NCBI GenBank assembly: GCA_029959085.1
Contig: JARWIR010000010.1
Coordinates: forward strand, 36,076,731 to 36,140,730
DNA length: 64,000 nucleotides
Reading direction: 5' to 3'
DNA from: Nemophila menziesii
Lineage: Eukaryota > Streptophyta > Magnoliopsida > Boraginales > Hydrophyllaceae
A program made the translations under genes and the position numbers. Under the pieces are notes generated by a model. The model was not told the DNA's origin, did no database searches, and saw only the letters and a list, made by a program, of their open reading frames with translations. Positions 16,205-59,300 of this stretch are shown piece after piece. The stretch's first letter is position 1. Each line of letters opens with the position of its first letter.

Positions 16205-17110
16205 ACATCCACCATTACTAAAATACTTTTAATAAAAGAGTTAGTCGCCGATAGATATCTAATAAAAATATTTAATTATTAAATTAAGTCTTCAATTATT
16301 TATTTAATAAAAAAATATCTAATGGAATAATTATTTATAGAAAACATCTCATTTATATTTTCTTATATACCATTACTACCTTTATTATTAAATATATTAT
16401 TTTATTTTTAATACAATATTTATTTTTAAATATTAAACAAATAATAGGGTACTTCCACCACCACCACAACTACAGCCACCACAACCATCACCACCACCTA
16501 CTATTAATTACATCATACATGCGTGTCTGTGATTTTTTTTTTTAAATCGTCATAACTAATTCTACAAAAATCAGAAAAATAAAAAATTTGCATTTTTGGA
16601 TAAAGCAAATTAATATTTCTGTCTATGATGTTTTTTTGTTTTTTTTTTAATTTTTTTATCGTAGACACGGATTTTCATGTTTAGAACATGAAATTCACTG
16701 TTTAAAACATGAAATTCTCTGTTTGAAATAGTGATTTTTTCGCAGACACAAATTTTCATGCTCAAAACATGAAATTCCTTGTCTGCGAAAAAAATTCCAA
16801 AAAAAATCATAGACGTAAATATTGATTTGATTTATCCAAATAATAAATTTTATTTTTTTGATTTTTTTAGAATTAGTTATGACAATTTGAAAAAAATTCA
16901 CGGACGCGCGCGTGTGTTTAATAGTTTTTGTTTTGTTTTTTCTCTAATTTTTTTCTTTTTTTAATTACTATTTATAGGGGTACTTTGTTTGAGGCATTTT
17001 TTTATAAAGAGTCTTATTCTAGGTACCTTTTTATTAATAATTTTTTTAATAGGCATTTTTGGATAATTGACTCTTAATAAAATGTCTTGGTATTTTAAAT
17101 ATTCATTGGA
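16205..17110. mobile_element. Foldback/MITE-like repeat, copy A
   Basis: The two halves are inverted copies. The left half around 16520-16640 (cgtcataactaattct, later gtctatgatttttt) is mirrored at 16800-16915 (aaaaaatcatagacg, later agaattagttatgac). A less similar outer inverted pair lies at 16215-16330 and 17000-17090. The centre holds short tandem phrases of the type catgaaattcactgtttaaaa, and an ACC-rich tract sits at 16445-16500. Related copies are at 39860-40614 plus 51419-51590, and a partial one at 53700-54008. No coding capacity is seen, and the superfamily is undetermined. Confidence 0.65.
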
Positions 17111-31800: not shown

Positions 31801-32866
31801 ATCGCTTCAAGGCATCACTTCTCTTACAAAGTTATCAATTGAAAGGAATGAGAAGTTGACTAAAATTGTATCACTTGAAGGCCTCTCATCTGTTGCAGAG
31901 TTATCAATTGAAGGAAATGAGCAGTTGACTGAAATTCCATCACTTCAAGGACTCACCTCTCTTACGGAGTTATCAATTGGAGGAAACCAGAAGTTGAATA
32001 AAATTGTATCACTTGAAGGCCACTCCTCTCTTACAAAGTTATCAATTACAAAAATTGACATACCATCGCTTCAAGTTCTCTCATCTCTTACGGAGTTATC
32101 AATTGTAGGAAATGAGAAGTTGACTGCAATTGTATCCCTTGAAGGCCTCTCGTCTCTTATGAAGTTAACAGTCAAAGGAAACAAGAGCTTGACTGAATTT
32201 CCATCATTTCATGGTCTTACTTCTCTCAAGGAGTTATCAATTGAAGGAAATGAGACATTGACTACAATTGTATCACTTCAAGGCCTCACTTCTCTTAAGA
32301 AGTTTTCAATTAAAGAAAACAAGCGGTTGACTGAATTACCTATAGGAATTCAATCGTGCATGTCACTTGAGACTGTGAAATGTTTAGGTAATAAATCTAT
32401 TCAACGGATAGATGGTCTTGAGCGTCTGCCCAACCTAAGAGAATTGAGTATTGGTCGTTTCTCAGAGGAGATGAATTTTTTCCCTTGGCCTCACAAGAAC
32501 AATGAAGACAAACATCTTTATTTCGGCTCTTTGATGGAGCTTGATCTAAGAGGGTGGCCAAAACTCACGTCTCTGCCTGAGCAACTTCAGTATCTCCCTT
32601 CATTGACATCCTTGGAAATCAATTCATTTGATGGATTGGAGGCTCTACCAGAGTGGCTGGGTAACATCCAGTCACTTTCCTCTCTAAATATTTGGAAAAA
32701 TGGGAATCTAAAGTATATGCCATCCGCGAAAGAAATGCAGCACCTCACCAATCTCCAACTATTGAGCATATTGTACTGTCCTTGTTTGAATGAGAGATGC
32801 ACCAGAGGGAGCGGCCCAGAGTGGCACAAGATTTCCCATATTCAACACATCAAGGTAATAGATTAG
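28832..32866 (+). CDS. CC-NB-ARC-LRR disease-resistance protein (NLR)
   Basis: A single uninterrupted frame of 1344 residues starts at the ATG at 28832 (context AAGATGG); the in-frame TTG upstream is not needed. The N-terminal 150 residues look like an Rx-type coiled coil. NB-ARC follows with P-loop GMGGQGKTT (194-202), kinase-2 LVVFDDVW (about 269-276), RNBS-B ILVTTRS (about 303), GLPL-type CGVPLAIKVLGG (about 362), RNBS-D CFAYCSIFPKD, and MHD in YKMHDIVHDFA (494-496). All key motifs are present, so ATP-dependent switching is plausible. LRRs fill residues 560-1340, including a recently amplified block at 876-1170. CNL proteins of this kind detect pathogen effectors inside the cell. The gene has only about 170 bp of native promoter, bordered by a copia LTR. 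I see no lesion; function and ligand are unknown. Confidence 0.95.
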   Translation: MAVEFLIGVVATNLFNQSLSIATKEISLFSSCEESLAKLKAGEVKIIQDLLSDVHNKDINSIAVQSWFEELKAVLFDAENILEEYNYKLLHHNIPRDIKVHNIFSRVRNIPFNLKIAHKVKAINSELKRVSEQGGKYGLINVLNSSSEIKMDRGTSPAVQESDIVGRDDDVAKVVDMLLSANNEENIALTAIVGMGGQGKTTLAQLVYKHDKVVNHFDEKVWVCISDDFKIERILGDMVQSLTKQNPNLTSRESLIRKLQETLKGKRYLVVFDDVWNEDQQKWELLKTDLLEISGSKGTKILVTTRSKNVVSIMRASQTHDLNKLSDEDSWCLFKKRAFAEGGVVETPDFVAIGKMMANKCCGVPLAIKVLGGLLYSRKDISDWLSIEKSDIWGSTENQPGGGVMSCIKLSYDHLDSLPLKQCFAYCSIFPKDKKLERERLIQQWMAHGFLNPPKGSALQMEDLGSTYFDILLWNSLLQEPSYDGDNRTWCYKMHDIVHDFALQVSKYYCFTMEKSCNANDIDKAMDEAVHVSVIDTDIPKGISSKIRTLRLSLPWGVKPYNINVLSKFGYLRSLILSNEEVKELPISIGKLKLLRNLDMKGSRITALPDSYVKLYNLQTLRLPVWFEQEILNVATLVNLRHIYMFWTSCIVVGIKQLVHLQTLTHFIVSNEKGCNIDELENQNNLRGSLCIKGLDKVMNEEEARKTNIAKKVKIHHLELCWTYSVREAVNQEGVLEGLIPHSFLKTLKIEGFKGLRFSSWMTTNSRLLINLMEIELNDCELVEQLPSIGHLPHLLKGRLYGLKNVKRIGAEFYGCTGDLNLTSCAFPALEEFSMDSMSSLEEWLGVEQLSPSLQSFPHLRRLEVISCEKLFDLPFLTGLTSLAELSIKRNKQLTKIPSLQGLTSLTKLSMKGNEKMTKIVSLEDLSSFAELSIEGNKQLTEIPSLQGLTSLTKLSIERNEKMTKIVSLEGLSSLAELSIEGNKQLTEIPSLQGITSLTKLSIERNEKLTKIVSLEGLSSVAELSIEGNEQLTEIPSLQGLTSLTELSIGGNQKLNKIVSLEGHSSLTKLSITKIDIPSLQVLSSLTELSIVGNEKLTAIVSLEGLSSLMKLTVKGNKSLTEFPSFHGLTSLKELSIEGNETLTTIVSLQGLTSLKKFSIKENKRLTELPIGIQSCMSLETVKCLGNKSIQRIDGLERLPNLRELSIGRFSEEMNFFPWPHKNNEDKHLYFGSLMELDLRGWPKLTSLPEQLQYLPSLTSLEINSFDGLEALPEWLGNIQSLSSLNIWKNGNLKYMPSAKEMQHLTNLQLLSILYCPCLNERCTRGSGPEWHKISHIQHIKVID
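31465..32330 (+). repeat. 138-bp tandem repeat coding paired LRRs
   Basis: The phrase GCAGAGTTATCAATT recurs at 31481, 31619, 31757 and 31895, exactly 138 bp apart, and the pattern continues in more diverged form to about 32330. Each unit codes for two 23-residue LRRs, one with KIPSLQGLTSL and one with KIVSLEGLSSL. One unit near 32033-32080 has lost several codons. Near-identity of the middle units points to recent in-frame expansion. Confidence 0.92.
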
Positions 32867-37059: not shown

Positions 37060-37990
37060 TAGGTTATTTGTATTAATATAGGACTTAGAGTGTGACTAAT
37101 ATAAAAACAATTAATAACAAGGCCTATTGTGCAATTTTTGCTTAAGATAGTGACCTATATTGCAACTTTTGCATAATATAGGGACTTAATTTGTATATAA
37201 TATAGGGACATGTAGAGTAATTTTTTGCATAATATATGTGATTTGTAGTGTAAATTTGACATAATATAGGGACTGATAATGTAATTTATTCAAAAAAAAG
37301 TTATAACAAAGCTTACAGTGCAATTTTTGCAGAATATCAGGACCTATATTGCAATTTTTGCATAATATTAGAACTTCTAGTGTAATTTTTACATAATATA
37401 GGGTCTTATAGTGTAAATGATTTTTAAAATAGTATAACAAAGCCTACCGTGCAACTTTTGCATAAGATAGGGGTCTATATTGCAACTTTTACATAATCTA
37501 GGGACTTCTAGTCTAATTTTTACACAATATAGGACCTGTAGTGTAATTCTTGCATAATATATGGACCTATAGTGTAATTTTTACATAATATAGAGACCTA
37601 TACTGTAATTGCATAATATAAGGACTTATAGTATAATTTTTACATAATATAGGGACCTAGGGACCTGTAGTGTAATTTTTGCATAATATATAAGATCTAT
37701 ACTGTAACTTTGATATAACATAGTTACTTATAATGTTACTGATTGAAAAAAGTAATAACAAGACCTACAGTGCAGTTTTTCCATAAAATAAGGAACTATA
37801 TTGCAACCCCTGCATAATATAGGGACCTATAGTGTATTTTTGCATAATATATGGATCTACATTGTAATATTTACATAATATAGTGACTTGTAATGTAATT
37901 AATTCAAAAAAAATTAACAAGGCATATAATGCAATTTTTGCATAATAACGAGACCCATATTGCAACTTTTCCATTAAATATAAGGGACCT
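37060..37990 (+). repeat. Intron 5 minisatellite, copy 2
   Basis: This is the same degenerate TATAGGGACCTATAGTGTAAT units as at 7560-8490, in the same intron. Unit numbers and order differ between the copies, so the array has kept changing since the gene duplicated. Confidence 0.85.
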
Positions 37991-38316
37991 ATAGTGTAAT
38001 TAACTCAAAACATATAAATTCCTCTTTGCCCCCAAACAAAATATCCGACTCTTCCCCTACTAATTGATTTATATTGTAATTTTTATATAATTTAGGAACT
38101 TAAATTTTTTTTCTGTAAATTTTTTTTTTTTTTTTTGTGATTAGTCATGTTTTGGAAAAAACCTTGTGATAAATCCAATATTTGAAGAAGAAAATAAACA
38201 AGATGGGGGATTAATGATCACTTCCATGCCTTCACATAATGAAGTTACTCAGTTGACCATTACAGGAGAATGGTCAACCCCTCAAATTCATGAGGTTATT
38301 TTTGTTTTTTTCTTTT

Positions 38317-39859: not shown

Positions 39860-40614
39860 AGAAGTATTTGCTAAAAAAAACCTAATAAAAATATCTTATT
39901 GTTAAATTAAGCTTTCAATAATTTATTTTATAAAAAAAATGGCTAATAAGATAATTATTTATAGAAAATATCTCTCTTATATTTTTCATATCTTTACTAC
40001 CTTTACTATTAAATATATTATTTTATTTTTAATACAATATTAATTTTTAAATATTCAACAAACAATAGAATACTTCCACCACCACCACCACCACCACCAC
40101 CACCACCACCACCATGTATTTAACCACCACTACAACTACCACACCACCACTACAGCAACCACAACCACAACCACCGCCACCTCCACCACCATAACCACCA
40201 CCTCCACCACCACAACAACCACCACCACCGCCTACTACTAATTCCATCATACACGCGCGCGTTTGTGATTTTTTTTCAAATCGTCATAACTAATTCTTAA
40301 AATATCAGAAAAATAAAAAATTTGCATTTTTTGATAAAACAAATTAATAATTATGTCTATGATTTTTTTTTTTCGCAGACACGAAATTCACTGTTTGAAA
40401 ACTAGTGATTTTTTTTCGCAAACATGAAATTCATTTTTCAAAACATGAAACTCATTTTCCAAAACACGAAATTCACTGTTCAAAAGATGAAATTTTGTGT
40501 CTACGAAAAAAATCCAGAAAAAATCATAGATGTAAATATTAATTTGTTTTATCTTAATATGTTACTTTTTAATTTTTCTGATTTTTTAAAAATTAGTTAT
40601 GACGATTAAAAAAA
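39860..40614. mobile_element. Foldback repeat copy B, left and central part
   Basis: It matches copy A (16205-16900) in order: AT-rich outer arm, ACC tract, cgtcataactaattct arm, gaaattcactgtt centre and the inverted inner arm ending aaaaattagttatgac. It is then cut by the 10.8-kb Mutator-like element. Its right end resumes at 51419 with aaaaatcac and GGCGCGCGCGTGTG and runs to about 51590. Confidence 0.75.
40073..40235. repeat. CCA trinucleotide tract
   Basis: Near-perfect CCA repeats at 40076-40113, then mixed CCA/ACA triplets. It belongs to the foldback element; copies A and C carry shorter versions at the same place. Open frames here are a composition effect. Confidence 0.85.
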
Positions 40615-41098
40615 GGATCAATGCCCTAAAAAATCATATTAATATTATAATTGTCTCAAAGAATCATCATTTTACTTAGTATACTTAGATTACCTATATA
40701 CCCTTACATTTCAATTAAAAAAACATAACATACTATTTAAAATTAAAAAATACACAATTCACTTCTCTCACCCACTAATACACGCACACACACAAAAATA
40801 AACTGAAGAACGCTACTGCAATCGATCGAAGACGAAAAGCAGATTTGAGTTTCAATTCTTGAGTTGAATTTGGGATTGATGGGATTAGTATCAAAGCCCA
40901 AATTGAATTGATACTGTCCTCCAATTCTTTAAGCCCAAATTGAAGCCTCGCTCCGCCATCGATCTGCCCAATTGCTCATCAACAGCCCGTAACTTTATTC
41001 AGTGGCTTTACTTCAATTGATTACGGCGGGATATGGCGGAGGTGATGGGATAAAAGCTTTTCATGTTATAAGATCAAATATATGTGTGTTGTGTATAG

Positions 41099-41446
41099 AA
41101 AATGGTTAATGGTGCGACAGTGAATTATTGGACGTGTGTGAGTTTCTCTAGATCGAATATCAAACGAGTAGCATTTGCCAGGGACCTTGTTAATATGTGT
41201 ACCATCAAAGGGATTGTAAGTTTGTTGTTTTTTATGTTTGTGTTATATTAGATAGTGATGGTGTTTGTTACCTTCAGGCTTTTGGTCCACCCTTGCTTCC
41301 TATTACTAAAGAGAATCCAAATTATATTGAGAAGATACTTACTGATATTCATAACAAATCAGTTGCCAAACTTAGAACTATTGGGGATGGAAAACAGAAG
41401 CTTCAGCTTTTGATAATTATACTTCCTGAGATTCATGGTTATCATG
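41099..41446 (+). pseudogene. Captured ARGONAUTE fragment (L2/MID region)
   Basis: Two exons with good splice sites: 41099-41215 and 41278-41446. The first reads KMVNGATVNYWTCVSFS and ends DLVNMCTIKGI, as in AGO1/5/10-clade proteins just before MID. The second starts AFGPPLLPITKENPNYIEKI and ends KLQLLIIILPEIHGYHG, matching the MID start where AGO proteins read LQLLIVILPD followed by a Gly-Tyr-Gly-type turn. The frame is open through both. The PAZ, 5'-phosphate pocket and PIWI parts are absent. ARGONAUTE proteins load small RNAs, so a transposon carrying this fragment is notable. Confidence 0.8.
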
Positions 41447-41965
41447 GTTAGTTCCTCCTCCTCCTACAATTACACTATGATGGGATGAAGCAAGTCTTCA
41501 GTTAGTAATGAATTTGACCTGGATAAGTGGATATTATGATGCCCTGTGTCTGTTAGAGTTGTTTATCTCATGTTGTTACGCTATTTATGATTCACGTGTT
41601 GTGTAGATTAAACTGTGTATATATTACCAAGTAATTAAGAAGACATAAGTTTGCTTGAAGTTTGAAAGCTAATAGTGAAATGGCTTGAGAATACATCAAG
41701 ATTAATACACTAATGGGATGAATCCCATTATACTTTTCTCAGGTTAGTGATCATTCAATTAGAGTCAACTTAGATGTAATAATCACTACTGATGGGACTA
41801 ATCGATCCTTTTGGACATTCTGTTGTTCAAGCGTACCTTTTGGGGGCAAAGGTATATTCTCTACTATGTAAATATATAAATAATGTCTTTGTATTGAGAT
41901 TATATTCTGTAAATTTCTGATGATATGTCTTATCGATTGTTTAGGTAGGATTTCACTTAATTAAG

Positions 41966-42040
41966 TGCAGATCCATCGATTTGTATGCATCAACTACAAC
42001 CACACGATCAGTTTCTCATACTTGCATCTGATGGTCTTAG
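41966..42040 (+). pseudogene. Captured PP2C phosphatase fragment, upstream piece
   Basis: The frame reads ADPSICMHQLQPHDQFLILA followed by SDGL, a PP2C core signature (clade D type, around the conserved ASDGLW). An acceptor AG precedes it at 41964-41965. It stops just before the expected Trp. The C-terminal exon of a protein of the same type follows at 42952, with E2F/DEL exons lodged between. Confidence 0.75.
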
Positions 42041-42223
42041 GTATGCAAAAAACTACTCTTGTTCCAATATCTACAGCAACAAAAGTCTCTAGCCCTTCTC
42101 ACTCAAAATTTTCTTAAGCTTTTTCTCTGTAGTAATGTAAGTAAAGAAAGAAAATTCAATCTTTTATATATAATAATTACCATTTTATTACCATCCGATT
42201 TTGCTTCACTTTTGTTTTTTAAG

Positions 42224-42781
42224 ATGGATATGATATCTCTTGAAGAGGCTGCTAAGATATTTCTCAAGAATGGTGCAGATCCACAAATGAACAGAAGTAA
42301 TTAACTAATACTCATAGTTTCTACACCTCAAATGGCTTTGATTAACTAACACTTGTGTTACTTCTTAACTACAGCTAAAGTGAGAAGGCTATACGATATT
42401 GCTAATGTCTTATCTTCGATGAAATTTATCGAGAAGGTGATTGATTGATTAATTGATTATTCTGCTTTATATGCATTTTAAGAAGATAATTAAAAATGAA
42501 GTTTGTGTTGTATTATACGCAGACTCATCACCCTGTAACAAGAAAACCTGCATTTAGATGGTTAGGATTGAGAGAAAAATCAAAAAAATGAAACTACAAA
42601 TCCTTTAACTAATTTCAATGTGCCTAAGAAAAGAGCATTTGGAACAGAGCTTACTAATACTTCACTCAAAAGGAGCAAGATTGATCGAGGTCTAGAAGGT
42701 TCTTTGGAGCAATTTATAAGGACGAAAGTACAAGCACAAACACAAGTGAAATGTGAGAATTCTGAAGAGTATATAGATTAA
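42224..42781 (+). pseudogene. Captured E2F/DEL-type transcription factor fragment
   Basis: Three exons with matching phases: 42224-42296 (SLEEAAKIFLKNGADPQMNR), 42375-42436 (TKVRRLYDIANVLSSMKFIE) and 42533-42781 (THHPVTRKPAFRWLGLREK). These match the second DNA-binding domain of atypical E2F (DEL/E2Fd-f) proteins, repressors of endocycle and cell-wall genes. A shift at an A run near 42580 moves the frame; the following frame continues with KKRAFGTELTNTSLKRSK, also E2F/DEL-like. The first DNA-binding domain is absent. Confidence 0.82.
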
Positions 42782-42951
42782 TGTGGTGTAATAAAATGCA
42801 AAAAATAGGAATGTGTCTTTGGGAGCATCTGACCAATCAGAAGGTAGTAGATATTGTACAAAATAGCCCCCACAATGTTAGATTTATAATAATCGTATCT
42901 TTGGGTTTATAATATTTATTTGTTTGATTAAAATTTAAATGATATTAACAG

Positions 42952-43204
42952 GAAGTGCAAGGAAGTTAGTGAAAACAGCATTACTTGAAGCAGCAAAGAA
43001 AAGAGAAATGAGATATTCAGATTTGAAGAAAATAGAAAGAGGTGTAAGAATACATTTTCATGATGACATCACTGTGATAGTTGTGTTTATAGATTCTAAT
43101 CTTGTGAGTAGAGCCACTTCATTAAAGGTCCCACTATATCTATTAAAGGAGGGGGAATAAATTTACCTTCTAAAACTTTGGCTCCTGATCTTGGTACCAC
43201 TTGA
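42952..43204 (+). pseudogene. Captured PP2C phosphatase C-terminal exon
   Basis: The exon follows an acceptor at 42950-42951 and reads [20 protein letters not shown] and later [20 protein letters not shown], the C-terminal metal-binding block of clade D PP2C. A one-base shift near 43125 makes one frame stop at 43160; the other continues with [18 protein letters not shown] to a TGA at 43202. The missing central part separates it from the fragment at 41966. Confidence 0.85.
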
Positions 43205-43300
43205 GAGAAGCTTTTATATGTTCCTTGTTCTTTGTTCATTCCACTTTGTGTTGTATACTCTACTGTAAATCTTTCTTTGAACTTCACACGTGTGAGAGAA

Positions 43301-43376
<76 letters not shown>

Positions 43377-43870
43377 AAGAAGGTTCAGCGCTAATTTATT
43401 CATTGATGTATAATGTAACATTTTAACTTGGAGAAGAACAAATACTCTTTTGTTTTGTTTTGTTTTGTTTAGCTTCTAGTATATGGTTAATTACTTTAGT
43501 AAAAATCATGGAATTGGGTATAAAAATAAGAATTCCAATATATTTATAGTATTCATTTTCCTTTACTTTTCTTTTCTTGTGTTGTACTTGTACTAACTGA
43601 TCGACTTGGCTTAAGATCTATCTTCAACAATAACTTGGTTTTAGGTTTTATAGATAATGTATGGTGAATTGGTGATGATGAGAATTTAATAATGTGTTTC
43701 ATAGAGTAAGTTATAACCGTGCAATTTAGCATTTATACAATTTAATGATGAAAATGGGCCATCGAACAAATGAGACACGAAATGTATGCTTCCCTCTTCT
43801 TACATGCTTTTTCATGATTAAATTAAATTAAATTAAATTATCTGTTTGGTATCCTATCTATAGCTAATTA
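43205..43870. repeat. AG microsatellite (43303-43374) and AT-rich spacer
   Basis: About 36 uninterrupted AG units lie at 43303-43374, followed by TTTTG repeats and AT-rich DNA up to a PIF/Harbinger insertion. The Arg-Glu open frame over the AG run is an artefact. Confidence 0.8.
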
Positions 43871-44857
43871 GGGTCCGATTGGTACGCGATAATGATTTTA
43901 GGAATGGAATACCTCATTCTATTCCTATACTTGGTAGCAGTTAAATTATACGGGATTCTTATTACCATTGGAAATTTAATCCCATAAACATGGTAATACG
44001 CATTCCATCCTTACCCCATGGTATTAGTCTATTCCTGATACATTAGGAATGAATTTTTATTTTTAATGGACTAATCTACCCTTAACTTATAATCCTATAA
44101 CACATACACATTTACTTTCAACATAAAAAAATTAAAAATTAATTGAAAACTAAGACAATGTAAAAAACAGAAAACCTTCAATATTTGCAGCAGCTGTTAG
44201 ATGATGAAGAGCTGGGGCAGAAGCATATATTTTTCTACGTATAACCCGATTATTTGTTCCACCTCCCCTTACTACATTTTTCCCATCTCTAGCCTAACAT
44301 TGCAAATGATTGAAGTGGGTACATTTTCCCCACCTCCCCTTACTACGTATAACCCAAAGTGTTGCAGATGATTGAAGTATTACATTAGCACCCCTTCCAC
44401 CATTTCTACCTGCATTATTTGCATTCATTTAAAAAATTGTATAATTGTCCGTCTTAGAAGGCATTCGATTAATGGTCTAGTAATATAACCAATTCAATCA
44501 TTATTTGCATTCACTTAAAAAAATTGTATGGTGTATTTTCTTTTATCATTCTTTTTTTTGGATTAATTCTTCATTCTTAAATATAACGTAAGTTAATTTT
44601 GTTATTCATGAACATGTATATTTTATTTATTAAATAAGGATAATTTTGTAATTATGTATAAAATATTTCCTATCCTTTTATGTCATATTGTCTTATCAAG
44701 TATGGTATTGAAATCATTTAATGTATTTGTACCTCTATATTTATGATATACCAAGCATGGTGTAATAATTAACGTAGTCATTTTAATACCACATCAATTG
44801 TATTCCTTATTATATTCCATTCCTATCGAAAACTATTACCGCGTACCAATCAGACCC
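43871..44857. mobile_element. PIF/Harbinger-type non-autonomous element
   Basis: The ends are inverted copies: GGGTCCGATTGGTACGCG on the left and GGGTCTGATTGGTACGCG reading in from the right, with similarity continuing to GGAATGGAATA. The TSD is TTA (43868-43870 and 44858-44860), the TWA target of this superfamily. The 987-bp interior is AT-rich and non-coding. It is nested in the Pack-MULE, so it inserted later or was carried within. Confidence 0.85.
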
Positions 44858-44973
44858 TTATGTTATTATAATTCTACTATGCAACTTAGGACTAGCTGTG
44901 ATATTTTCTTTACTTTTTATAGCTGTAACTTTCAGTTTTCTACAAAGTCCTCATCTCTGAAGTGTAAATATAG

Positions 44974-45110
44974 GCTACAAGACACGCAGAAATGGAAGCA
45001 ATAGAGATATTTTACTTGAACAATGGAACAAAAAATGTTCATATTCATTAGAAATTGCTGAAAAATTCTCGGAATGTACTCTTTATGTAACATGTGAGCC
45101 GTGTATAATG
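44974..45110 (+). pseudogene. Captured TAD2-type tRNA adenosine deaminase fragment
   Basis: After an acceptor (atatag) the frame reads [10 protein letters not shown], containing the catalytic HAE of the deaminase fold. A one-base shift follows, then DILLEQW and [19 protein letters not shown], containing PC of the zinc-binding PCxxC. The second Cys of that motif is lost at the 3' breakpoint. TAD2/ADAT2 enzymes make inosine at the tRNA wobble position. Only this catalytic-core piece is present. Confidence 0.78.
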
Positions 45111-45815
45111 GAGTTCATGGAAGAATGAGTTGTTATGCGATGGTCCGTACCTGCTTATAGAAGTCCTATTTCATCCCCAAAACACGGTGAATTGACTATT
45201 TTTAATTATTTGTTTAACCAAGAGGTATAATGTACCAAAGGCTTAAAGAGAAACACATTATTTACATACTTTACATAATAACACGAAATGAAGACTTTTG
45301 TCACAAATATCTGTGAATGGTATAATACTTTGTTTTTTTCCATCTTTTTGCTTGGTTGCTTCGTTTTTCTTTTGTTTGCTTGTAAGCTTAATTTGTATAT
45401 AGTTTCCATTTTAGTGAGAATTTTAATTTTTTTTGTTCCAAACAGTGAGAACTTTAATTACAGTATTGTGTATGTATACTTTCTCATCAAAATTACTCTA
45501 ATGCCTATTAGTATTTATTTAAATATATACATTGATTAAAAGTTGATGTCGCTAGAGTCTAGACACGTCTTAATAAAATTGCACAAATAAAACCATCTGT
45601 GTCACGAAATAGCTTGCTAATACCCGCTTTTAATAAAAAATAAGGAAAATACAAACTAAGGTCTCATTTTTAAATAACTTATTTTTTGAAGAAAAATACT
45701 TCCATTCCATATTAGATGGTAGTATTAATTATATTTTTATATATATATATCTCATATTTTAGTTATATAAAAGTTAATTTTAGGTAACTACCTAGTTAAT
45801 CTAACTAGGTTTAGC
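45111..45815. other. AT-rich spacer in the Pack-MULE
   Basis: No coding fragment is recognised between the TAD2 piece and the minisatellite. Confidence 0.4.
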
Positions 45816-46899
45816 AGTGCGATGGAGTCCCATCAGCGCGATTGAGTCCCATCAGTGCGATTGATTCCCATCAGCGCGATGAGTCCCATCAGCGGGATAG
45901 AGTCCCATCAGCGCGATAGAGTCCCATCAGAGCGATTGAGTCCCATCAACGCGATACAGTCCCATCAGCGCGATTGAGTCCCATCAGCGCAATAGAGACC
46001 CATCAGCGCGATTGAGTCCCATCAGCGCGATTGATTCCCATCAGCGCGATGGAGTCCCATCAACGCGATTGATTCCCATCAGCGCGATTGAGTCCCATCA
46101 GCACGATTGAGTCCCATCAGCGCCATAAAGTCCCATCAGCGCGATTGATTCCCATCAGCGCGATTGATTCCCATCAGTGCGATGAGTCCCATCAGCGCGA
46201 TAGAGTCCCATCAGCGCGATTGAGTCCCATCAGAGCGATTGAGTCCCATCAATGCGATACAGTCCCATCAGCGCGATTGAGTCCCATCAACGCGATAGAG
46301 TCCCATCAGCGCGATTGATTCCCATCAGCGCGATGGAGTCCCATCAACGCGATTGATTCCCATCAGCGCGATTGAGTCCCATCAGCACGATTGAGTCCCA
46401 TCAGCGCGATAAAGTCCCATCAGCGCGATTGAGTCCCATCAGGGCGATTGAGTCCCATCAGAGCGATTGAGTCCCATCAGAGCGATTGAGTCCCATCAAT
46501 GCGATACAGTCCCATCAGCGCGATTGAGTCCCATCAGCGCGATAGAGTCCCATCAGCGTGATTGATTCCCATCAGCGCGATGGAGTCCCATCAACGCGAT
46601 TGATTCCCATCAACGCGATTGAGTCCCATCAGCGCGATAAAGTCCCATCAGCGCGATTGAGTCCCATCAGGGCGATTGAGTCCCATCAGCGTGATTGATT
46701 CCCATCAGTGCGATGAGTCCCATCAGCGCGATAGAGTCCCATCAGCGCGATAGAGTCCCATCAGCGCGATAGAGTCCCATCAGCGCGATTGAGTCCATCA
46801 GAGCGATTGAGTCCCATCAACGTGATACAGTCCCATCAGCGCGATTGAGTCCCATCAGCGCGATTGAGTCCCATCAGCGCGATTGATTCCCATCAGCGC
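45816..46899 (+). repeat. GC-richer minisatellite, forward array
   Basis: Nearly 60 units of 17-20 bp follow the form AGTCCCATCAGCGCGATTG, with variants in the spacer (ATAG, ATGG, ATACAG) and in the core (AACGCG, GAGCG, GTGCG). Blocks of units recur in the same order (compare about 45860-46080 with 46160-46380), indicating higher-order duplication. Open reading frames across it are artefacts of the period. Confidence 0.95.
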
Positions 46900-47125
46900 G
46901 ATGGGACTCTATCGCGCTGATGGGACTCTACGTGCTGATGGGACTCATCGCACTGATGGGAATCAATCGCGCTGATGGGACTCAATCGCGCTGATGGGAC
47001 TCCATCGCGCTGATGGGAATCAATCGCGCTGATGGGACTCTATCGCGCTGATGGGACTCAATCGTGCTGATGGGACTCAATCGCGCTGATGGGAATCAAT
47101 CGCGTTGATGGGGATCAATCGCATT
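46900..47125 (-). repeat. Same minisatellite, inverted array
   Basis: About 12 units of the reverse complement (CGCTGATGGGACTCAATCG). The switch point is the near-palindrome TCCCATCAGCGCGATGGGA at 46888-46905. Together with the forward array it can pair into a stem of up to about 225 bp, or slide along the array. Confidence 0.93.
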
Positions 47126-47396
47126 AAGATGCAAATAACTTATACACAATCAACAATTATAAAGAATTGTTCCATAAAAAACTTAAGCATCCCACATATT
47201 TACCAAAACAAATCATCAAATAGTAACTACACTAAGTCACTAAGGAGAGCAAAATTAATCAATATTTAGTCATTTCAATAAATTGGCAAGTTAATTAAAG
47301 ACTAATGATTCCAGATAATGAGTTATGAGCTCTCAACTATAAGAATGCTCCTTTGTTCGCATAAATCAAAGACTAATATCTTCATAACTGATTGTT

Positions 47397-47512
47397 CGCA
47401 TTAATCCCGTCACCGCGACGAATCCCGTCACCCCGACAAATCCCGTCACCCCGACGAATCCCGTCACCCCGACGAATCCCATCACCCCGATATTGATCCC
47501 GTCACCCGGCCA
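47397..47512 (+). repeat. Second minisatellite, CCCGTCACCCCGACGAAT
   Basis: About six 18-bp units of AATCCCGTCACCCCGACG. The motif resembles a diverged form of the main minisatellite (CCCATCA versus CCCGTCA). Two further related units sit at about 50238-50275 beside the cyclin fragment. Confidence 0.88.
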
Positions 47513-48353
47513 TTTCTAGTGTATTGATGTTTCTCTACAGAACCTGAATAACACTGTTGGCATTTGAATTCTTTTAGTAGTATAGTATACCAATGATCAG
47601 TTTTCATTACGCAATTGAAATGTTACATTAATTTATATACCTTTTTTTAAATTGCATTCAACTAGTTGTATTACTTGTGGACATACAAATGTAGATACAA
47701 GCACAACACTGAGAAAACTTGGTAGACTGAAATTGCGTTATAAATCAAATCCCATATACTCACTTTTCTCATTTCCATATTATTCTCACTCATACATTAT
47801 TCACCAATACTACAAATATCATCATGAAAAAGGAAAAACTTTCAACTTATCATGTAACGAGATATTACATGTATATATTAAGAAATCTAATGGAAGAAAG
47901 AAAAAGTTTTATATGGAGATGAGATATCTTGACATCTTCAAAAGTAATTGTATCTCTCGAGTGAAGCATAAGTAGCATTTCAGTAAAAGTACTCTGGAAA
48001 TGAGCAAAAATGTTGAATTAGATAAAGACCATAAAATACGGCAAGTAGAAAATAATAAGAGAGATAAATTATACTAACTCACCAAAGCAATAGAGTCTCA
48101 GATTGGACAAAAGTTAGATTCACTTCGTGTTGATAAGAATATTTTGGAGCGAGGTGAAAAAGTATGTCAGAAGCTCCTTTATTTTTCTTCAATTCATTTG
48201 AATTCATCTTTTGGATACTTCATCCATACAACTTAAACCTACCCCTGGCTAACACCCAAAATTCAACATAAAAATTAAAATTTCAGCTTTTCTGCCATTT
48301 TTAAACTAATAATTAATTTAATGATCAACTATGCAAATATTAAAACAATGCAT
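47513..48353. other. Pack-MULE interior, possible coding scraps
   Basis: Phrases such as SCITCGHTNVDTSTTLRKLG (about 47665-47730) and KAIESQIGQKLDSLRVDKNI (about 48082-48150, with a donor-like GTATGT near 48162) look coding but match no family I can name. Confidence 0.3.
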
Positions 48354-48475
48354 ACATCATCTAAGTCTTTAACGTGTACAACAATGACCGTTATATCATT
48401 AGTTTTGTACCATAGTTTGTATGATTCTCCAAATATTGCAGAGCATGCATCTCGAGGATCCAAATAACTATTCAC
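48354..48475 (-). pseudogene. Second captured PP2C fragment, different subtype
   Basis: The minus strand reads [20 protein letters not shown] and then [13 protein letters not shown]. This is the C-terminal part of the PP2C type found in plant phosphatase-kinase/cNMP-domain proteins, where DPRDAC and ESYRLW precede TDDIT. A few residues between ESYKLW and NDIT are missing. It is on the opposite strand to, and of a different subtype from, the PP2C pieces at 41966 and 42952. Confidence 0.65.
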
Positions 48476-50309
48476 CTACACACATACCATCCATATTTAT
48501 AAAGAGACAGTGCCAGATATCACTAGTAAAAAAAAAGTGAATTTTTTATTAGAAGTTTCTTAGCCTGATGTGATGAGTCAGAATCACGAGAGCTCAAGAA
48601 TACCCAATTAATATGCATATTTAACAAGTGAATCTTGCAAACCAAGCTTGAGGAAAAATTAATCCCACCACCGGGTCAATGGGATATAAATCCCATTTGA
48701 CTCGATTGTTTCATTTTTCTTATGTTGTAACATAACATATGTACTTATCTTTCGAGCTGCAAATGCAAGAAGCATGTGTCACAAAATTTTAACAAATGAA
48801 CAATATATTATACTTTACTCAAATCAATAACATGATAGAGCATGAAACTGAAAGATATAACCCACAAATATGAAAGAGATTATACCTCGATGCAGAAGAA
48901 ACTTCATTATACTTACTCAATGTTTGTAACATGAGATAAATACTAGAAAAGAGTAATCTCAAGATGCTTTCTTCTGCTAAATTGACACTCACGAGTATAT
49001 CTAAAGATCTATTCACCAATAAAATAGTAAACCTTATATCAATAAACTAAACCACTTACCTATGCATAATATTATATGTACACACAACTTAGTAAATAAA
49101 ATTGCATTACAGTCCCCAAATACATAACAGAATCTTACTTCTCTATCTCCTCAAATTCCATATAGTGCAATGCCCATTGTAAGCGACAAATATGAGAGAA
49201 TTTAAGGTCCTACCCTAAAAAATATAAGACAAATAAAATTTAATCTATCAGTGGGCCCACCATATTTTAGAGAAAAATAAGAGTACAGAGATATTTACCG
49301 TTCACCAAGCATAATATATCTTCTTCTTCAAGGCCTTCAAAAACAAGAACTCTATCCAAAACCTATATATGTGTTACAAACTCACCAGTTAATGAGCTAT
49401 ATGCATTAAGACAAACAAGAAAAGCATTAAAAACCTTGAAATCTGTCCATTTAATTCCTGGGCCCACATCTTCTTTTAAGTCAAGCTTAATTGAGCAAAC
49501 CCATTGTAGTCTCGAGTGACCAATCTAGCTACAACTGTAAATGTGTTACTCCATTTACTTTTACAATCTTCATCGGAGCTTACTGGTGCTAAAGCAAACC
49601 CTATCAAATACTAAATAGAAACTTACTGTAGCGGAACTCACATCTTTTGGCTTGTATTCTTCAAGTTGTGATGGGATTAGTCCCATTAGTAGTGATTATT
49701 ACATCTGAACTAACCCTAAGTGAAAAATCACTAATATAAGAGAAGTATAATGGGATTATCCCATTAGTATATTAATCTTGATGCATTCTCAAGCCATCCA
49801 CTGTTAGCCTTCCAACTTATCCTTTACCGTTAGATGAGATAAGCCATCCTTTACCGTTAGATGCGGTTTGGAAACAGGTTCATATTTTTAGTGGGATCAA
49901 AATCAGGGTCAAGAGATTCATTTAATCACCAGGTCAAAATTAGTTTGTTAGCTTCTGAATCCTTCGCATTATAGCTGCTTTAGAATTGTACACCAATACT
50001 AAGTTAACAAGACACTATGAAAAAAACATTTAAATCAAGTTTTGATTGAAAACTAAGCGAACAAGACATTTCATCACAGCTATTTCCTCAAACTAATAAG
50101 CTATAAAATCGATCCTACAGTTAATTTGAAGTAATATTAATAGGAAATAGAACGCAACAAGATCATAATTACTTCAGTTAGGAGACGATTCTTTGGAAGC
50201 AGCTTAGCAACTTCAGATGGGAGAACAAAAATCCAGTCACCTCGAAGAATCCCGTCAACTCAACGAATCCCGTCAAGGCTTAATTACTACTCTGTTTCTC
50301 AGCACAAAT
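48476..50309. other. Pack-MULE interior with unidentified minus-strand exons
   Basis: Minus-strand phrases with splice-like borders occur at about 49440-49500 (LKEDVGPGIKWTDFK) and 49305-49375 (VLDRVLVFEGLEEEDILCLV), perhaps adjacent exons of one gene. Another open stretch lies at 48870-49020. I do not recognise them. The segment 49664-49825 is an inverted copy of 41665-41810. Confidence 0.35.
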
Positions 50310-50972
50310 GTAACAAACCTTTCCGTTAAGTTCAGCTACAATCCCATCACCTGCTTCGAATATCTGGGCTTTTGGTTTCTTAGTTAAACCACTCGCAGCC
50401 TATTTATATACAACATTTATAGATTAGAAAGGGGTAAATTACAAAACTATCCTTTATCATGATTGTGTTTTTTAGATAGATCAAGATTTACCTTGCTTCT
50501 AGCAGTTAGAGTAGCAGTAAGTGTTGGGCCTTGCTTTTTGGCTGAAACTCTTTTTGCGATTGGCTTCTCCTTCTTGATTTCTTCTACTGTCACCTTCTTG
50601 GTCTCGGGTTCGGGCTTCTTTGGTGCGACGGTGGGCTTTAGTCTTATTGCAGCTTTCTTCTTCAAAGGTTGAGGTTTCCTTACTTTACCCGCTCCATCAG
50701 CATCCACGTTAACGTTAACTCCTAAACGTATCTGAAAATCAAGAAAAAATTAATAAAAATTCAATATAAATTAGCAAAGTTGAATTAATTTTAAAGAAAC
50801 TAACATTGTTATCTGCTGCTACTTGTGCATTAGCAAGCAATTGTGCACAAAAACTTTTTGTGACAGGCCTTGAAACTTGAGGTAATGGCTTCCCGTCGAT
50901 TCCACGAACAGTTACCAAATTTCCGATGTCACCAAGTGCTCGACGATTTCTTAAGTTCACCTCTCCGATCAC
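50310..50972 (-). pseudogene. Captured B-type cyclin N-terminal fragment
   Basis: Three exons in minus order: about 50972-50805 (RNRRALGDIGNLVTVRGIDG, then RPVTKSFCAQLLANAQ), 50731-50492 (KPQPLKKKAAIRLKP and a Lys-rich linker) and 50399 to about 50310 (AASGLTKKPKAQI). RRALGDIGN is the cyclin B destruction box of CYCB1. The introns have GT-AG borders. The cyclin-box folds that bind CDK are absent; after about 50310 the frame leaves the cyclin pattern. If expressed it would be a degron-bearing stub. The real start codon is not clear. Confidence 0.85.
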
Positions 50973-51418
50973 TTACTACTTCGTTCTTCACACTCCACCA
51001 CCTCCATCCGCCTCCACCGTCCACCACCACTTGCCCAACCACTACCTCTTCCATCGCAGCTGCGTTATACATATACACCAAATCAGACAAATTTTCAGTT
51101 CTCGGATCAAACCGGCGCCACTTCAAATGCAAGGGATCGTTTGAGAAGGAAAACTTAGAAGGTGAGAGCATCTAAAGAAGATTTGAATCAGACAATCGAA
51201 GAGGAGAAGTGGATTTTAACAAAAAAATAAAGAAAATGAATTGTTTTAATAATTAGGGTATATATATTAAGTAATTTCTAGTATAAAAATTAGAAAAGGG
51301 TAGTTTAGTCAAATAGACTATTAAATAATTAAGTTCATGATTTTATTGGGCAGATTTTTTTGTCTTGATTTAATTGGGCATAAAAAATTATTAGTTTGAT
51401 TTTTTAGGTCATTTTACC

Positions 51419-51590
51419 ATAAAAAAAAAATCACAGGCGCGCGCGTGTGTTTATTAGTTCCTGTTTTTTTTTCTTTTAATTTTTAATAACCATTATGTTT
51501 TGTTAAGATTCTAATTTCTTTCTATTTTAATTACTATTTCTAGGGGTATTTTCCGTTGGGCTGTTTTTTTAAAGAGTCTTATAAAAACAC
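51419..51590. mobile_element. Foldback repeat copy B, right part
   Basis: It continues the foldback element interrupted at 40614, with the GGCGCGCGCGTGTGTTTA block and the ttaattactatttctagggg arm also seen in copy A at 16905-17000. Its right edge abuts MuDR transposase coding DNA. Confidence 0.7.
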
Positions 51591-52593
51591 ATCCCCTTAT
51601 TTTCAGGAAAGTGGCATCCAAAAATAACATCCCACGACATGATAAAAAAACAGCTATGGATCCACCAAACGCTAAAAAAACTATGGAAAACACGAGAAAT
51701 AGGGTCACACTCAACTGAAAAGACAGTCTCCGGGTCAAGCGCTTTAAGCTTCTGAAAATAAATCTGTAAACGATTTAAAGATGAATCAATATCGCCAAAT
51801 AAAATGGTCCTTCGCCTTGTTGATCGTAGCCCAAGAAACGTCAAAACCATAACACTCCTTTAAAATAAACTGAATTTGTCTTGGCCTAAGATATGGATTC
51901 GCATGAAACTCGACTGAAAGAACATGATATAAAATGATAGAGTCCAAACTATCATGAGATAACTTCTTGTAAGCGTGCCCACATGTATGAATCGACCTAT
52001 AAGTCCTCACATACCAATAACCGTTAGATTTTTCAGGAGAGACATAAACATACCATTTGCAACCCTTACTAATCTTATAAAGGCATTGTGCACTTATACG
52101 ATTCTTATTGTTATGAATATAGTCATACTCAAAGCCTTCAACAACAACTTGTTTACAAAGAACTATGCGGAATTGTTCAGCACCGTCAAAAAAAAGCTGC
52201 CCGGAAGACTGTAAACCATATTTCCATGAATTATTTCTTAAATCTTTTGCTTCGTGTGTAAAAAAATATTGGAGTGTGGGACGGTAGGGAAGGGTCAGGA
52301 ACAGATTCTATAGGGACATGTTGACTGGCTTGTACACACATTCGGGCTGAATCCGTAGCAGGGATAGTAAAGGGTAACCTCGCTCGTTTATCCAAAACAC
52401 ATATATCCATCTTCTGGTAATTTCTACGCTCCAAAATCCACTTAATTGTGGAGAAATCAGTGTTATTCTCTAGTCCGGAATCTTTGTAATCACCTATAGT
52501 ATAAGATAAACTAAGAAAACCGTCGAATGAACCCCATCTGCTTAGTGTGAAATTCTTTATCGAATTGAAATCGGTTAGCTCAATGAACGACAA
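51590..52593 (-). pseudogene. MuDR-type transposase, truncated
   Basis: Minus-strand frames (52593-52231, then 52220-51590 with shifts) match the N-terminal half of MULE transposases. A MuDR-type region has ISKGCKWYVYVS and RTYRSIHTCGHAYK, followed by LRPRQIQFILKECYGFDVSW. The sequence ends just as the DDE catalytic domain begins (FGCHFPENKG), where the foldback repeat starts. It therefore lacks the catalytic triad and the SWIM finger. It is distinct in sequence from the transposase at 56399. Confidence 0.75.
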
Positions 52594-55940: not shown

Positions 55941-56398
55941 TCCATTCACCTACCCAACTAAGTACCCCGTAACACCCCTTTCTCACTATAACATAACAAA
56001 AATAAGATCAAATCGCACATAGTAGTGCGAGTTCTTGGTGTTCTTCATCAAGTTTGACAGAAAATATACAAAGCCATTCCAATCAAGAAGGAATCTCTAA
56101 CTCTCGTTACCACCCACCTACGTACAAACACCTCGTAAGAAACCATCTTCATTTCTCAACTCGCCGTTAAACACTTGAAGAAACGAATCAAATTCTCGCC
56201 GTATCCTCTCGAATCCAAGAAAAATTTGAGTAGCAACTTCATACACGGCTTTTCCATTCAATTCTGATGGCGTATTTAAGTGAAATCATGAGTGATTCAT
56301 GTACTATTCTTCTTCTAGACTCATTTAATTTGGGATTTCTGGGTATTTTAGGGTTTCATTCTACAGTGATTGGGATTATTTTGTAATAGTAGCTTCGA

Positions 56399-59300
56399 TT
56401 GTTAATCGCAGATTCGGAGAAAGGTGAAGGCGATAATGTTAATTCCGGTGTTGATGATAGCGGTTCAGATTTTTCGTTTCATGATAGCGATAATAACCTC
56501 GATGACGATGAAGATGGCATTCTGTTCCAAAACAACGTTGATATCGGGGTTGAGTTTGTTGGTGTCGGGTCTTCTCTGTCGGTTAAATTAAATGGGTTAG
56601 AGCTCCCTTGTCCTAAAGAACTACCTGTTATAGAAGATGACGACTTCAACAAGGGTTCGTGTAAAGAGTTAGAGAATTTGAGAAGTTTAGAAGGATCAAC
56701 GGATGAGAAGGATTGTTCTGGAGTTCGAAGAAGGAGAAGTCAACGTTTTAATGTAGTGGTTGACAAGAATGAGCCTAAATTGAAGATTGGTATGATTTTT
56801 GCAAACGGAGTTGAGTTTAAGGAAGCAGTGAAACCAATTGCTATTTGTGAAGTAAGGAATGTTTGGTTCCCCTGTAATGAACCAGGAAGAGTTAGAGCTA
56901 AGTGTAGAGGGTTGAATTGTGATTGGTTTGTGTATGCGACTAAATGCTTGGATGGTAGCTTTCAAATTAGGACACTTAATCTCATACATAACTGTGGGTG
57001 TGCATTAAACAGTAAGCACGTAAATTCTACCATTCTATCGACGATGTGTGCTCATCAATTGAAGTTAAACTCATCTTTGCGAGCAATTGACTTACAAGAA
57101 CAAGTATTACATGATCTTCATTTAAATATTAGTAGGAGGCAAGCATATAGGACAATCAAGAAGGGTAAGGCGTTAGATGAATTGCAATTTTTGGACCAAT
57201 ATAGTTTGCTCAACAACTCTTTTGCTGAGTTGTTAAGGACTAATCCGGGTTCAACAGTCTTTTTAAAAACTGAGGAAGATGAATTAACTGGGGAACACAG
57301 GTTTTTAAGATTCTATTGTTGTTTGGAACCTCTGAAAAGAGGGTTTAAGGCTGGTTGTAGAAAGGTGGTTGGGTTGGATGGATGCCATTTTAAAGGACCT
57401 CATCCAAGTGTTATATTAACTGCGGTTGGTATGGATGCTAATAATTGCATCTATCCGGTGTGTTATTCTGTGGTTGAAACTGAAAATTTGGACACTTGGA
57501 GATGGTTTGTTGGTTTGTTAGTAGATGATCTTGGAATTGATGATCCTGAGATGTGGGTGTTTGTTACTGATAAACAAAAGGTATAGTTAATATATACTGT
57601 ATATATGTTTTTTATTTTGAAATTTGTTACTGCCTAATAGTAAAATGTGGTTATTTTTTTGCAGGGTTCAGGAATTGCTTTGGAGGAATTACTACCAGAT
57701 GTTGAACACATGCATCGTGTTAGACACCTCCATCAAAACTTCAAGAAAAAACATGGGTCCTTTGCATTGAAAGATAAGATGTGGGAAGCTGCTCGGGCTA
57801 CGTATGTTGAGCGTTTTACAAGTGTCATGGAGGTGATTAGAGCAATGGATGAGGCAGCATATGAATGGTTAGCAAAAGAACCGCCAAGGTATTGGACTCG
57901 ATCCTATTTTAGGACAAATACGCATTGCGATGCTTTATTAAATAATATGTGTGAATCATGGAATAAACAACTTTTAGACGCTAGGGAGTCTTCAATTTTA
58001 GTTTGTTTAGAACGTATAAGAGTTTATTTTGTTGAGAGAGTAGAAAAAAGAAGAAAGTGGATAGGTAGATGGCAGGGAGTGATTTGTCCTAAGATTAGGA
58101 AAATTATTAATTTAAAAAAGAAGTGGTCCTCCAAGTGGATTCCATTACAATGTGGAGGTAGTACTTTCCAGGTAAAGGGCTCAAATGGGGCTCAATTTGT
58201 TGTTGATTTAAATACTTTTAATTGTGCATGTCGAGGGTGGGACTTGTCGGGAATCCCATGTGTACACGTGATTTCCGCATTAGCATCCTCGGGTCTTGAG
58301 GCAGAAGACTACACTTCTGATTATTTTAAAACGTCTACATTTAAAAAGGCATACGAGCCTTATATTGGACCTATAAATGGACCTGAACGGTGGTCTCAGA
58401 TTAATGGCCCTACAGTAATTTCTCCAAAGGGTGTCAAACTAGCTGGGAGACTGAAAAAGAAGCGAGATGGAGCCGTTGGGGAAGATGTTGAAGAGAGGAT
58501 GAAGAAAACACGATCAAAAGACAAAGGTAAAGAAGATGTACGAGTGGATGTTCAAAAGGCTGGTAGACATGGGTTGAAGGGTAAATGTAGTGCTTGTAAG
58601 CAACTTGGACACAACATAAGAAGTTGTTCAAGAAAAAGTCAAGGTCAAAGTGCAGCTGAAAGTGTAGTGAATGACCCAGTGGAAGGTAATAGCGTGGATG
58701 AAAAAACTACTGAAACTCCAAAGATGGTCTCAGTGGAGTCTCAAGGTCAAAGCAGCTCTATGGTCAAGGTTGACAAACGAAGAACGAGTAGACTTAAGAA
58801 AACACCAAAAGTGACTGAAAATAATGTTTATGTCAACGCGACTAATAGTGATGTAAACATAAATGTGGTCAACAGTGATGTTAATGTGGATGCATTAAGA
58901 AGTGATCTTCAACTAACGGGATTTAAGAGTACAGTTGACGTTGACATTGACGCGAGTGAAGTTCACCTTAACGTCAATGATAGCAACATTGTAGGGACTA
59001 CCCAAGTGGTTAGCCCTTCTGGTAGGAGAACCAAATCAAGAGCCAATAGGGGACCATCACCTTCCAAAACGGATGGTGAAGATACATCTAAGGGCGACGA
59101 GTCTAATGGAGATTCAAAAATGTTTACTGAGATGAGTCAAACATCTAAGGTAAGATTAGTCTTTTATTTTTGTTTTACCTTATATAAATCATTAACTTGT
59201 TTTTTTAATCTTATTGTAAAAGGATACCCCTGGAAATGAGGAGCAAGTGGTCGTGATGACTCAGGGTAGCACTAACGATCCACTTGGTTGGATGGGCCCA

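Follow-up and report, generated by a model that had tools for sequence, protein, structure and literature searches.

A 64,000-nucleotide stretch of the Nemophila menziesii genome (contig JARWIR010000010.1; C2:36076731-36140730 in our numbering, hereafter the window) contains, at positions 40615 to 51418, an element that is almost certainly a non-autonomous, composite Pack-MULE, a known kind of Mutator-like element (MULE). This agrees with a sequence-only reading of the window, which had called it a Pack-MULE: it has a 9-bp target-site duplication (TSD), G-rich ends and copies at other sites, and carries intron-bearing fragments of host genes. On the analysis set out below we further read the element as a putative passenger of a VANC/KIU-type anti-silencing system addressed by the short family word TGATGGGA; we consider this explanation as a whole rather probable, and the trans anti-silencing role within it plausible.

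Copies were sought across the whole genome (1.52 Gb, 361 contigs). The left end (first 200 bp) gave 40 scored matches among 264 candidates and the right end (280 bp) 40 among 592, the element's own match being included in each. The copies examined comprised a 10-kb stretch at each of the 20 best left ends besides the window's own and three of about 8 kb at weaker ends; they bear L numbers below. For 14 copies, that of the window among them, both ends were located; these copies are 4.7-10.8 kb long. With borders free to shift by up to 2 bp, perfect direct repeats of at least 9 bp flank 11 of the 14; the window copy has one mismatch, and L017 and L020 have no such repeat. The copy termini read GGGTCAATGCCC... 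and GGGAAAATGACCC..., with single-base variants between copies. In eight of the first 20 stretches (L016, L018, L019, L022, L024, L026, L027 and L028) the right end was not placed within 10 kb; L018 has a degenerate right-end match (74%) which the end-placing script did not accept, and it was excluded from the bounded copies. The copies in L016, L024 and L026 are interrupted by LINE-type (long interspersed nuclear element) or MULE insertions, and LINE-type reverse transcriptase open reading frames (ORFs) were recognised by eye at L024:3689-7783, beside the 18-bp array, and at L016:459-3393, in the left end (loci turned). The family of the window element is mobile, and 9-bp duplications together with G-rich ends point to the MULE superfamily.

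The window element begins with GGATCAATGCCCTAAAAAAT at 40615 and reads GGTAAAATGACCTAAAAAAT on the opposite strand from 51418. The inverted similarity of its termini, 25 bp with a score of 35 (300 random pairs from the window: median 23, 95th percentile 30, maximum 50), is suggestive but, taken alone, not decisive; the ends are settled because other copies carry the same ends. The two TSD copies differ at one position in nine, in an A-run, and random 9-mer pairs from the window differ at one position or none with a frequency of 0.00026, a figure that ignores the A-run. When the element and eight of the nine bases of the right TSD are removed, the joined flanks form a 386-bp palindrome (77%) spanning the junction, and they align without a break, at 76%, with window positions 16460-16952, which are an unoccupied paralogous target site. 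The two inverted ends, the TSD with its single mismatch and the foldback that becomes continuous without the element had all been pointed out from the sequence, and all hold; the genome search with both ends adds that these are multicopy elsewhere, and the paralogous empty site lies inside the window itself. The copy on C148 (L030/L042, C148:12141514) and the L013 copy, at its right flank, adjoin a copy of the foldback repeat that the window element entered, possibly a target preference.

A core array is present in all 14 bounded copies. Its unit is 19 bp long (GAGTCCCATCAGCGCGATT) in the window copy, L009, L010, L012, L013, L017, L020 and L048, and 18 bp long (AATCCCGTCACCGCGAAA) in L011, L014, L015, L021, L023 and L025; by eye, the two units share the common core TCCC(A/G)TCA(G/C)CGCGA. 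The word TGATGGGA is also enriched outside the arrays. In 32.6 kb of element DNA, with arrays excluded and between-copy repeats masked, it was seen 25 times; the expectation, taken from the flanks and the remainder of the window, was 1.17. This makes it the most enriched 8-mer of 14,173 distinct ones (ranking limited to words seen at least six times); ATACATAC and AGAGAGAG repeats are likewise enriched there, less strongly. The count of TGATGGGA is zero in the 52 kb of the window beyond 40-52 kb. In the window element, GATGGGA and ATGGGAT together occur 20 times outside arrays (100 dinucleotide shuffles: mean 1.78, maximum 7), and in five other elements tested their counts also exceed the respective shuffle maximum. 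Beyond what had been read from the sequence, the element thus holds minisatellites and a motif dispersed outside them; it also has an internal inverted repeat of 146 bp and a nested miniature inverted-repeat transposable element (MITE), which, from its TTA sites and ends, we take to be Harbinger-like.

Loci bearing one end of the family also carry accessory ORFs. L049 has the window family's left end (79% over 147 bp), and L036 its right end (91% over 201 bp) together with an accessory ORF 97% identical to that of L049, an ORF to which no match was found anywhere in the window. The adjacent loci L051 and L049 hold 50 copies of TGATGGGA in 10.6 kb and none of AACATGGAA, with 2 of the 50 inside six ORFs that cover 34% of this DNA (p 3e-7). 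A further ORF is present twice in L049/L051, in copies 51% identical to each other; the best of its eight PDB matches is SENP8, an Ulp1-type protease, at a weak E value of 0.032, and Pfam gave no match.

Another MULE family has this layout too, but its word differs. In L026 the family copy is split by another MULE (L026:405-9697, 9,292 bp, with short imperfect ends), which has DBD_Tnp_Mut, MULE and SWIM domains in two ORFs, an accessory ORF and a coiled-coil-like ORF. Its word is the palindromic AACATGGAATTCCATGTT, arranged in 21-bp arrays; AACATGGAA occurs in it 57 times, five of them inside the four ORFs that cover 40% of the insert (p 1e-7), and TGATGGGA does not occur. The accessory ORF of L049 is homologous to that of L026 (28% over 218 residues, E 1e-22), and none of 445 candidates in a public protein set matched the L026 accessory protein at E 0.001. 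Two MULE families of one genome thus carry mutually exclusive words, 57 against 0 in the L026 insert and 50 against 0 in L051 and L049, and the window element carries TGATGGGA and lacks AACATGGAA. The foldback repeat of the window contains ACATGAAATTC-type repeats (40379-40474 and 16686-16777), a word that looks similar to AACATGGAATTCCATGTT.

Several candidates for a source of transposase were discarded. The 9.3-kb MULE in L026 was rejected as the family's autonomous partner, being a different, inserted element: neither its ends (GAGG..., flanked by TTAAAAAA) nor its motif are those of the family. By tblastn, its transposase matches the window only at 51595-52473 and 56786-58543, both outside the element. 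The first of these (minus strand, about 180 bp past the element's right end) is a decayed relative of the L026 transposase, 30-51% identical in pieces (E 1.7e-32); the second belongs to another MULE transposase at 56393-59239 (plus strand; DBD_Tnp_Mut, a weak MULE domain and SWIM in two ORFs), where no word is strongly repeated. Lying outside the element and lacking TGATGGGA, neither was accepted as its own, and no transposase domain was found with Pfam in the element segments scanned.

VANC proteins, which belong to the Arabidopsis VANDAL elements, are described as binding short, tandemly arrayed motifs that lie in the non-coding DNA of the VANDAL family to which each protein belongs (PMC5735166, PMC10398659), and some VANC genes are described as carrying an Ulp1 domain (KIU) and as strongly conserved in eudicots (PMC13317346). 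We propose that the accessory protein would be a putative VANC/KIU-type factor that binds its own family's word and lifts silencing, and that the window element, which has no accessory gene, would be de-silenced and moved in trans by its relatives while the word is kept. Modules would be swapped by template switching or recombination between copies, with transposition to follow, as in the FoSTeST model. A trans anti-silencing role for an element bearing TGATGGGA is offered here tentatively. With similar reserve we suggest that gene-capturing elements lacking the accessory gene may have co-opted a transposon-encoded, sequence-specific anti-silencing system addressed by TGATGGGA arrays, any mosaic that keeps the address being de-silenced and moved in trans. 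If this is true, host gene scraps, including a piece of the silencing gene ARGONAUTE, ride in silencing-exempt DNA, and element length and content are free to vary. It would bear on an old question about Pack-MULEs, namely why long, gene-bearing, non-autonomous elements escape shutdown by the small RNAs that they should provoke. Should the word prove to be kept in every mosaic while captured genes turn over, selection would see the address and not the cargo.

Several observations weigh against this proposal. First, what supports the label 'VANC/KIU' is gene order, position, motif pattern and a single weak Ulp1-like match; neither in L026 nor in L049 does an accessory ORF pass a Pfam cut-off or match DUF1985. 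Secondly, no transposase was found in a locus with the ends of the window family: the 10.6 kb of L049 and L051 ends before one appears, L049 and L036 each have one family end and were not seen with both ends or a TSD, and at E 1e-4 the L026 transposase matches no examined locus other than the window (L029). Thirdly, in L049, TGATGGGA stands in short arrays and singly, with no long array; L013, L017 and L020 contain one AACATGGAA each; and TGATGGGA may not be one single target, because the 18-bp variant TCCCGTCA predominates in L011, L014, L015, L021, L023 and L025, where exact copies of TGATGGGA number only 8-9. The motif sites are moreover not independent, through shared ancestry and arrays, so the p-values are too small. 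Finally, of the two bounded copies without a TSD, L020 has the last 30 bp of its right end unmatched, and not every MULE here fits the pattern, because no word is strongly repeated in the MULE that the window itself contains at 56-59 kb.

The best-surviving alternative, which we regard as rather unlikely, is that the arrays and scattered words are binding sites of a transposase or host factor, or a slippage minisatellite copied along with the modules, with no anti-silencing involved. Minisatellites are known to expand by slippage without function, and sister copies share their sites by descent; the accessory ORFs have no recognised domain. What slippage alone does not predict is a second MULE family with the same layout, a different word and a homologous accessory gene. 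The enrichment of TGATGGGA outside arrays, across different modules and subfamilies, and its avoidance of ORFs in L051 and L049 (2 of 50 words inside) are likewise not predicted by slippage alone.

Sequence comparison of the copies shows that the window element is a mosaic, or recombinant: its modules come from at least three sister lineages and are 95-99% identical to theirs. Its first part (40615-42084) is closest to L009/L010, at 98-99%. The following part (42085-43762) is absent from L009/L010 and occurs in L011, L014, L015, L017 and L020 at 91-99% (95-99% for L011/L014/L015), with parts in L016 and L019. Among the examined loci, 47123-49822 recurs in L009/L010 only, at 98%, and the eight segments of it tried gave nothing above the Pfam cut-off. 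The last part (49823-51418) is found whole or in part in five loci (L012/L031, L032/L043, L030/L042, L033 and L034) at 95-99%: the cyclin block is shared with L042, L033 and L034 and mostly missing from L012 and L043, and the right end is shared with the former three and L012 (95-98%). Two stretches, 43763-43866 and 44864-45800, were found in no examined locus at 60% coverage. The arrays of L009 and L010 lie between the arms of inverted repeats, of 1,680 bp (99.9%) and 1,343 bp (99.6%) respectively; the window copy has the right arm only, and within its array the orientation changes head to head near 46900. Both patterns would be accounted for if fold-back template switching had passed through the array.

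Four host genes, ARGONAUTE, PP2C, E2F/DEL and cyclin B, are firmly represented by their sequence matches. The ARGONAUTE fragment has its best matches with ARGONAUTE 1, 5 and 10 (ARGONAUTE 1: E 4.8e-15) and occurs in 11 element loci, the window copy included (34 of 34 candidates scored). It is 91-99% identical to seven of the eight other copies aligned over most of its length (L018: 85%); the nearest genomic ARGONAUTE locus found, C2:39719998-39720352, which also has the intron, is on this contig at a distance of 3.6 Mb, and is 81% identical in DNA and 60-77% in protein. The PP2C parts derive from a single gene split by the E2F/DEL fragment, because they match adjacent stretches of the profile and their joined peptide aligns straight across the join with a single phosphatase structure (PDB 2pnq, query 1-39, join at 26), with the DEL piece (second DNA-binding domain of E2F8, E 4.2e-8) between them; the second part taken alone is below the Pfam cut-off. 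A TAD2 identity for the piece in 44864-45800 is weak, about 20 residues matching with E values of 0.0049 in Pfam (below the cut-off) and 0.19 in PDB.

The cyclin B fragment matches the N-terminal exons of a genuine cyclin B gene in L047, with introns retained, at 78-86% over the matched stretches. Besides the window copy, a 721-bp cyclin query, with 40 of 42 candidates scored, matched over its full length in six places at 94-98% and in one more at 89%, and over 62-83% of its length in a further four at 87-98%; not all of these eleven places are confirmed family elements. As cyclin donors, two C131 loci were rejected since they look like decayed copies, and C309 and C1:24540400 because, as relatives at 67-68%, they show no clear gene; the gene in L047 is genuine, but it is not proven to be the donor. 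Just past the cyclin homology, at 50283-50352 on the minus strand, a short in-frame stretch, GDGIVAELNGKVCYICAEK, may be another gene's scrap; a CESA-like reading of it was not adopted, the stretch being too short. In a sister subfamily, L021:5033-5428 (plus strand) holds a TOD1/MUCI70 glycosyltransferase fragment (Pfam E 1.9e-32). No sign of selection for a functional mix of cell-cycle and silencing genes was seen, no selection test being made: the ARGONAUTE piece occurs in 11 element loci, and another subfamily has the TOD1/MUCI70 piece instead of such a mix.

The sequence-only reading had counted at least five unrelated genes, among them two PP2C phosphatases and TAD2. Its ARGONAUTE, PP2C, E2F/DEL and cyclin B pieces with their introns are upheld, the two phosphatases reduce to one, and with TAD2 weak the firm number falls to four. 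Comparison of fragments with possible parents succeeded in so far as genomic loci could be set beside ARGONAUTE and cyclin; L047 stays unproven as the parent of the latter. That reading had also supposed that the window copy gathered its pieces by serial capture from host genes, which we now judge improbable. For the ARGONAUTE, PP2C/DEL and cyclin blocks it is largely refuted, as these are mostly 91-99% identical to sister loci, against 81% and 78-86% to genomic ARGONAUTE and cyclin, respectively; at most, repeated capture would describe a remote history, since the blocks occur in sister loci mostly at 95-99%. The presence of 43763-43866 and 44864-45800 in no examined locus is in its favour, in that this lineage may have made at least one gain of its own. 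Most captures are old and the window copy is a recombinant, because the copies resemble each other more than the genomic genes found, and assembly would have proceeded mainly by recombination or template switching between elements, because the ARGONAUTE-PP2C-DEL, 47123-49822 and cyclin blocks each occur in sister loci.

It is very improbable that the motif arrays are a tool of capture, with TGATGGGA as the point at which elements recombine among themselves or with genes. The ARGONAUTE and cyclin homologies each have one border no more than about 20 bp from a word site, and 10 of 127 non-array breakpoints are at most 10 bp from a site where 3.8 were expected (p 0.005); six of these ten, however, belong to the internal inverted repeat, whose borders were counted once for each of several copies, and there is no significant excess within 20, 30 or 50 bp. 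In eight representative elements, 18 of 145 breakpoints fall at arrays against 20 expected, counts that do not support the motif or arrays as hot spots of capture or recombination, and the ARGONAUTE and cyclin relatives L037 and L044-L047 lack the word. Capture by a rolling-circle Helitron is scarcely credible: Helitrons, too, are established collectors of multiple intron-bearing gene pieces, but they do not make the 9-bp target duplications that these copies carry, and both ends are conserved as inverted G-rich termini; no search for Helitron end motifs (5' TC and 3' CTRR hairpin) was made.

Table. Positions of the element's modules, gene fragments, repeats and target site in the window
Feature	Position	Strand	Remarks
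Foldback target repeat, left part	40251..40614	.	continues past the element at about 51428-51448
TSD, left copy	40606..40614	.	TTAAAAAAA; right copy differs by one base
Left terminal module	40615..41096	+	95-98% in L009, L010, L011, L013, L014, L015; lower in L017, L018, L020 and others
Dispersed GATGGGA/ATGGGAT site outside arrays	40878..40886	+	others include 41044, 41479, 41713, 41791, 48679, 49670, 49750, 50341
ARGONAUTE fragment	41092..41481	+	two exons, intron kept; 81% DNA identity to C2:39719998-39720352
Inverted repeat arm 1	41658..41803	.	146 bp, 86%, partner 49675-49818; holds GATGGGA/ATGGGAT sites
PP2C fragment, first part	41961..42040	+	Pfam PP2C profile 188-212
E2F/DEL fragment	42216..42590	+	best match second DNA-binding domain of E2F8; within the PP2C fragment; approximate borders
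PP2C fragment, second part	42817..43107	+	Pfam profile 212-248; same gene as first part; approximate borders
Nested MITE	43867..44861	.	49-bp inverted ends (82%), TTA on either side
Possible TAD2 (tRNA adenosine deaminase) fragment	44961..45125	+	weak; region in no examined locus
19-bp minisatellite	45815..46902	+	57.5 copies, CAGCGCGATTGAGTCCCAT
19-bp minisatellite, inverted (head to head)	46896..47122	-	12.1 copies
Right-arm module	47123..49822	+	98% to L009, L010, which have an inverted second partial copy across the array
18-bp array	47403..47490	+	AATCCCGTCACCCCGACG, 4.9 copies
Inverted repeat arm 2	49675..49818	.	partner of 41658..41803
Shared module	49826..50232	+	whole or part in L012/L031, L032/L043, L030/L042, L033, L034 at 98-99%
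Short 18-bp array	50226..50276	+	2.9 copies, at the cyclin module border
Cyclin B fragment	50353..50972	-	N-terminal exons and introns; 96.5-98% in L030/L042, L033, L034; mostly deleted in L012, L043
Right terminal module	51139..51418	-	40 scored matches among 592 candidates
TSD, right copy	51419..51427	.	ATAAAAAAA
Paralogous empty target site	16460..16952	+	unbroken alignment with the joined flanks, 76%

Elsewhere in the window, 31-bp tandem repeats of a similar kind (ACCTATAGTG...AATTTTTGCATAATAT) occur at 7841-8487 and 37317-38001, and also in the L012 element (element coordinates 3324-3461). By eye, a long open NBS-LRR-type (nucleotide-binding site, leucine-rich repeat) ORF with 69-bp tandem repeats in its LRR part was recognised at 28727-32866 (plus strand).

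In the portions of the descriptions compared, Pack-MULEs (PMC8903248, PMC13317346) are like the window family in being non-autonomous and multicopy, with 9-bp TSDs and fragments of host genes, here with introns, from more than one source locus. Unlike them, the present family has short, degenerate inverted ends instead of long terminal inverted repeats (TIRs), copies of 4.7-10.8 kb, a motif minisatellite in all 14 bounded copies, and modules swapped between sisters. Rearranged composite elements that amplify after rearrangement are also reported among MULEs with multiple TIRs (PMC3310237). The repeats of the present family differ from these in being internal motif arrays, and tandem TIRs were not seen. 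The FoSTeST model, as outlined for the Ssk-FB4 Pack-TIRs in excerpts of PMC8277862, shares the multicopy state, the repetitive parts and the proposed template switching that leads to transposing chimeras. The present case differs from it in being a plant system with several gene fragments, exchange of whole modules, and breakpoints not enriched at arrays.

The VANDAL and KIU non-TIR MULEs, as far as the available parts of their descriptions go (PMC5735166, PMC10398659, PMC6446971, PMC13317346), share with the present family the degenerate ends, the 9-bp TSD and a short motif that stands in tandem arrays, avoids coding sequence and differs between families; related loci here have accessory ORFs with a possible Ulp1-like part (SENP8, weak E 0.032). 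The present motif, in its 18/19-bp arrays, was not met in those parts. The DUF1985 (and DUF287) of VANC genes was not detected in the accessory ORFs of L026 and L049, for which Pfam gave nothing above the cut-off. The clearest difference is that the motif here is also present on gene-capturing elements without the accessory gene. Among the literature matches listed, none connects VANC/KIU-type systems with gene-shuffling passengers; if the proposed reading of the window element as such a passenger is true, these systems would be extended to them. The unusual features of the family are the swapping of modules and, above all, the presence of the family word on gene-bearing elements that lack the gene for its likely, putative reader.

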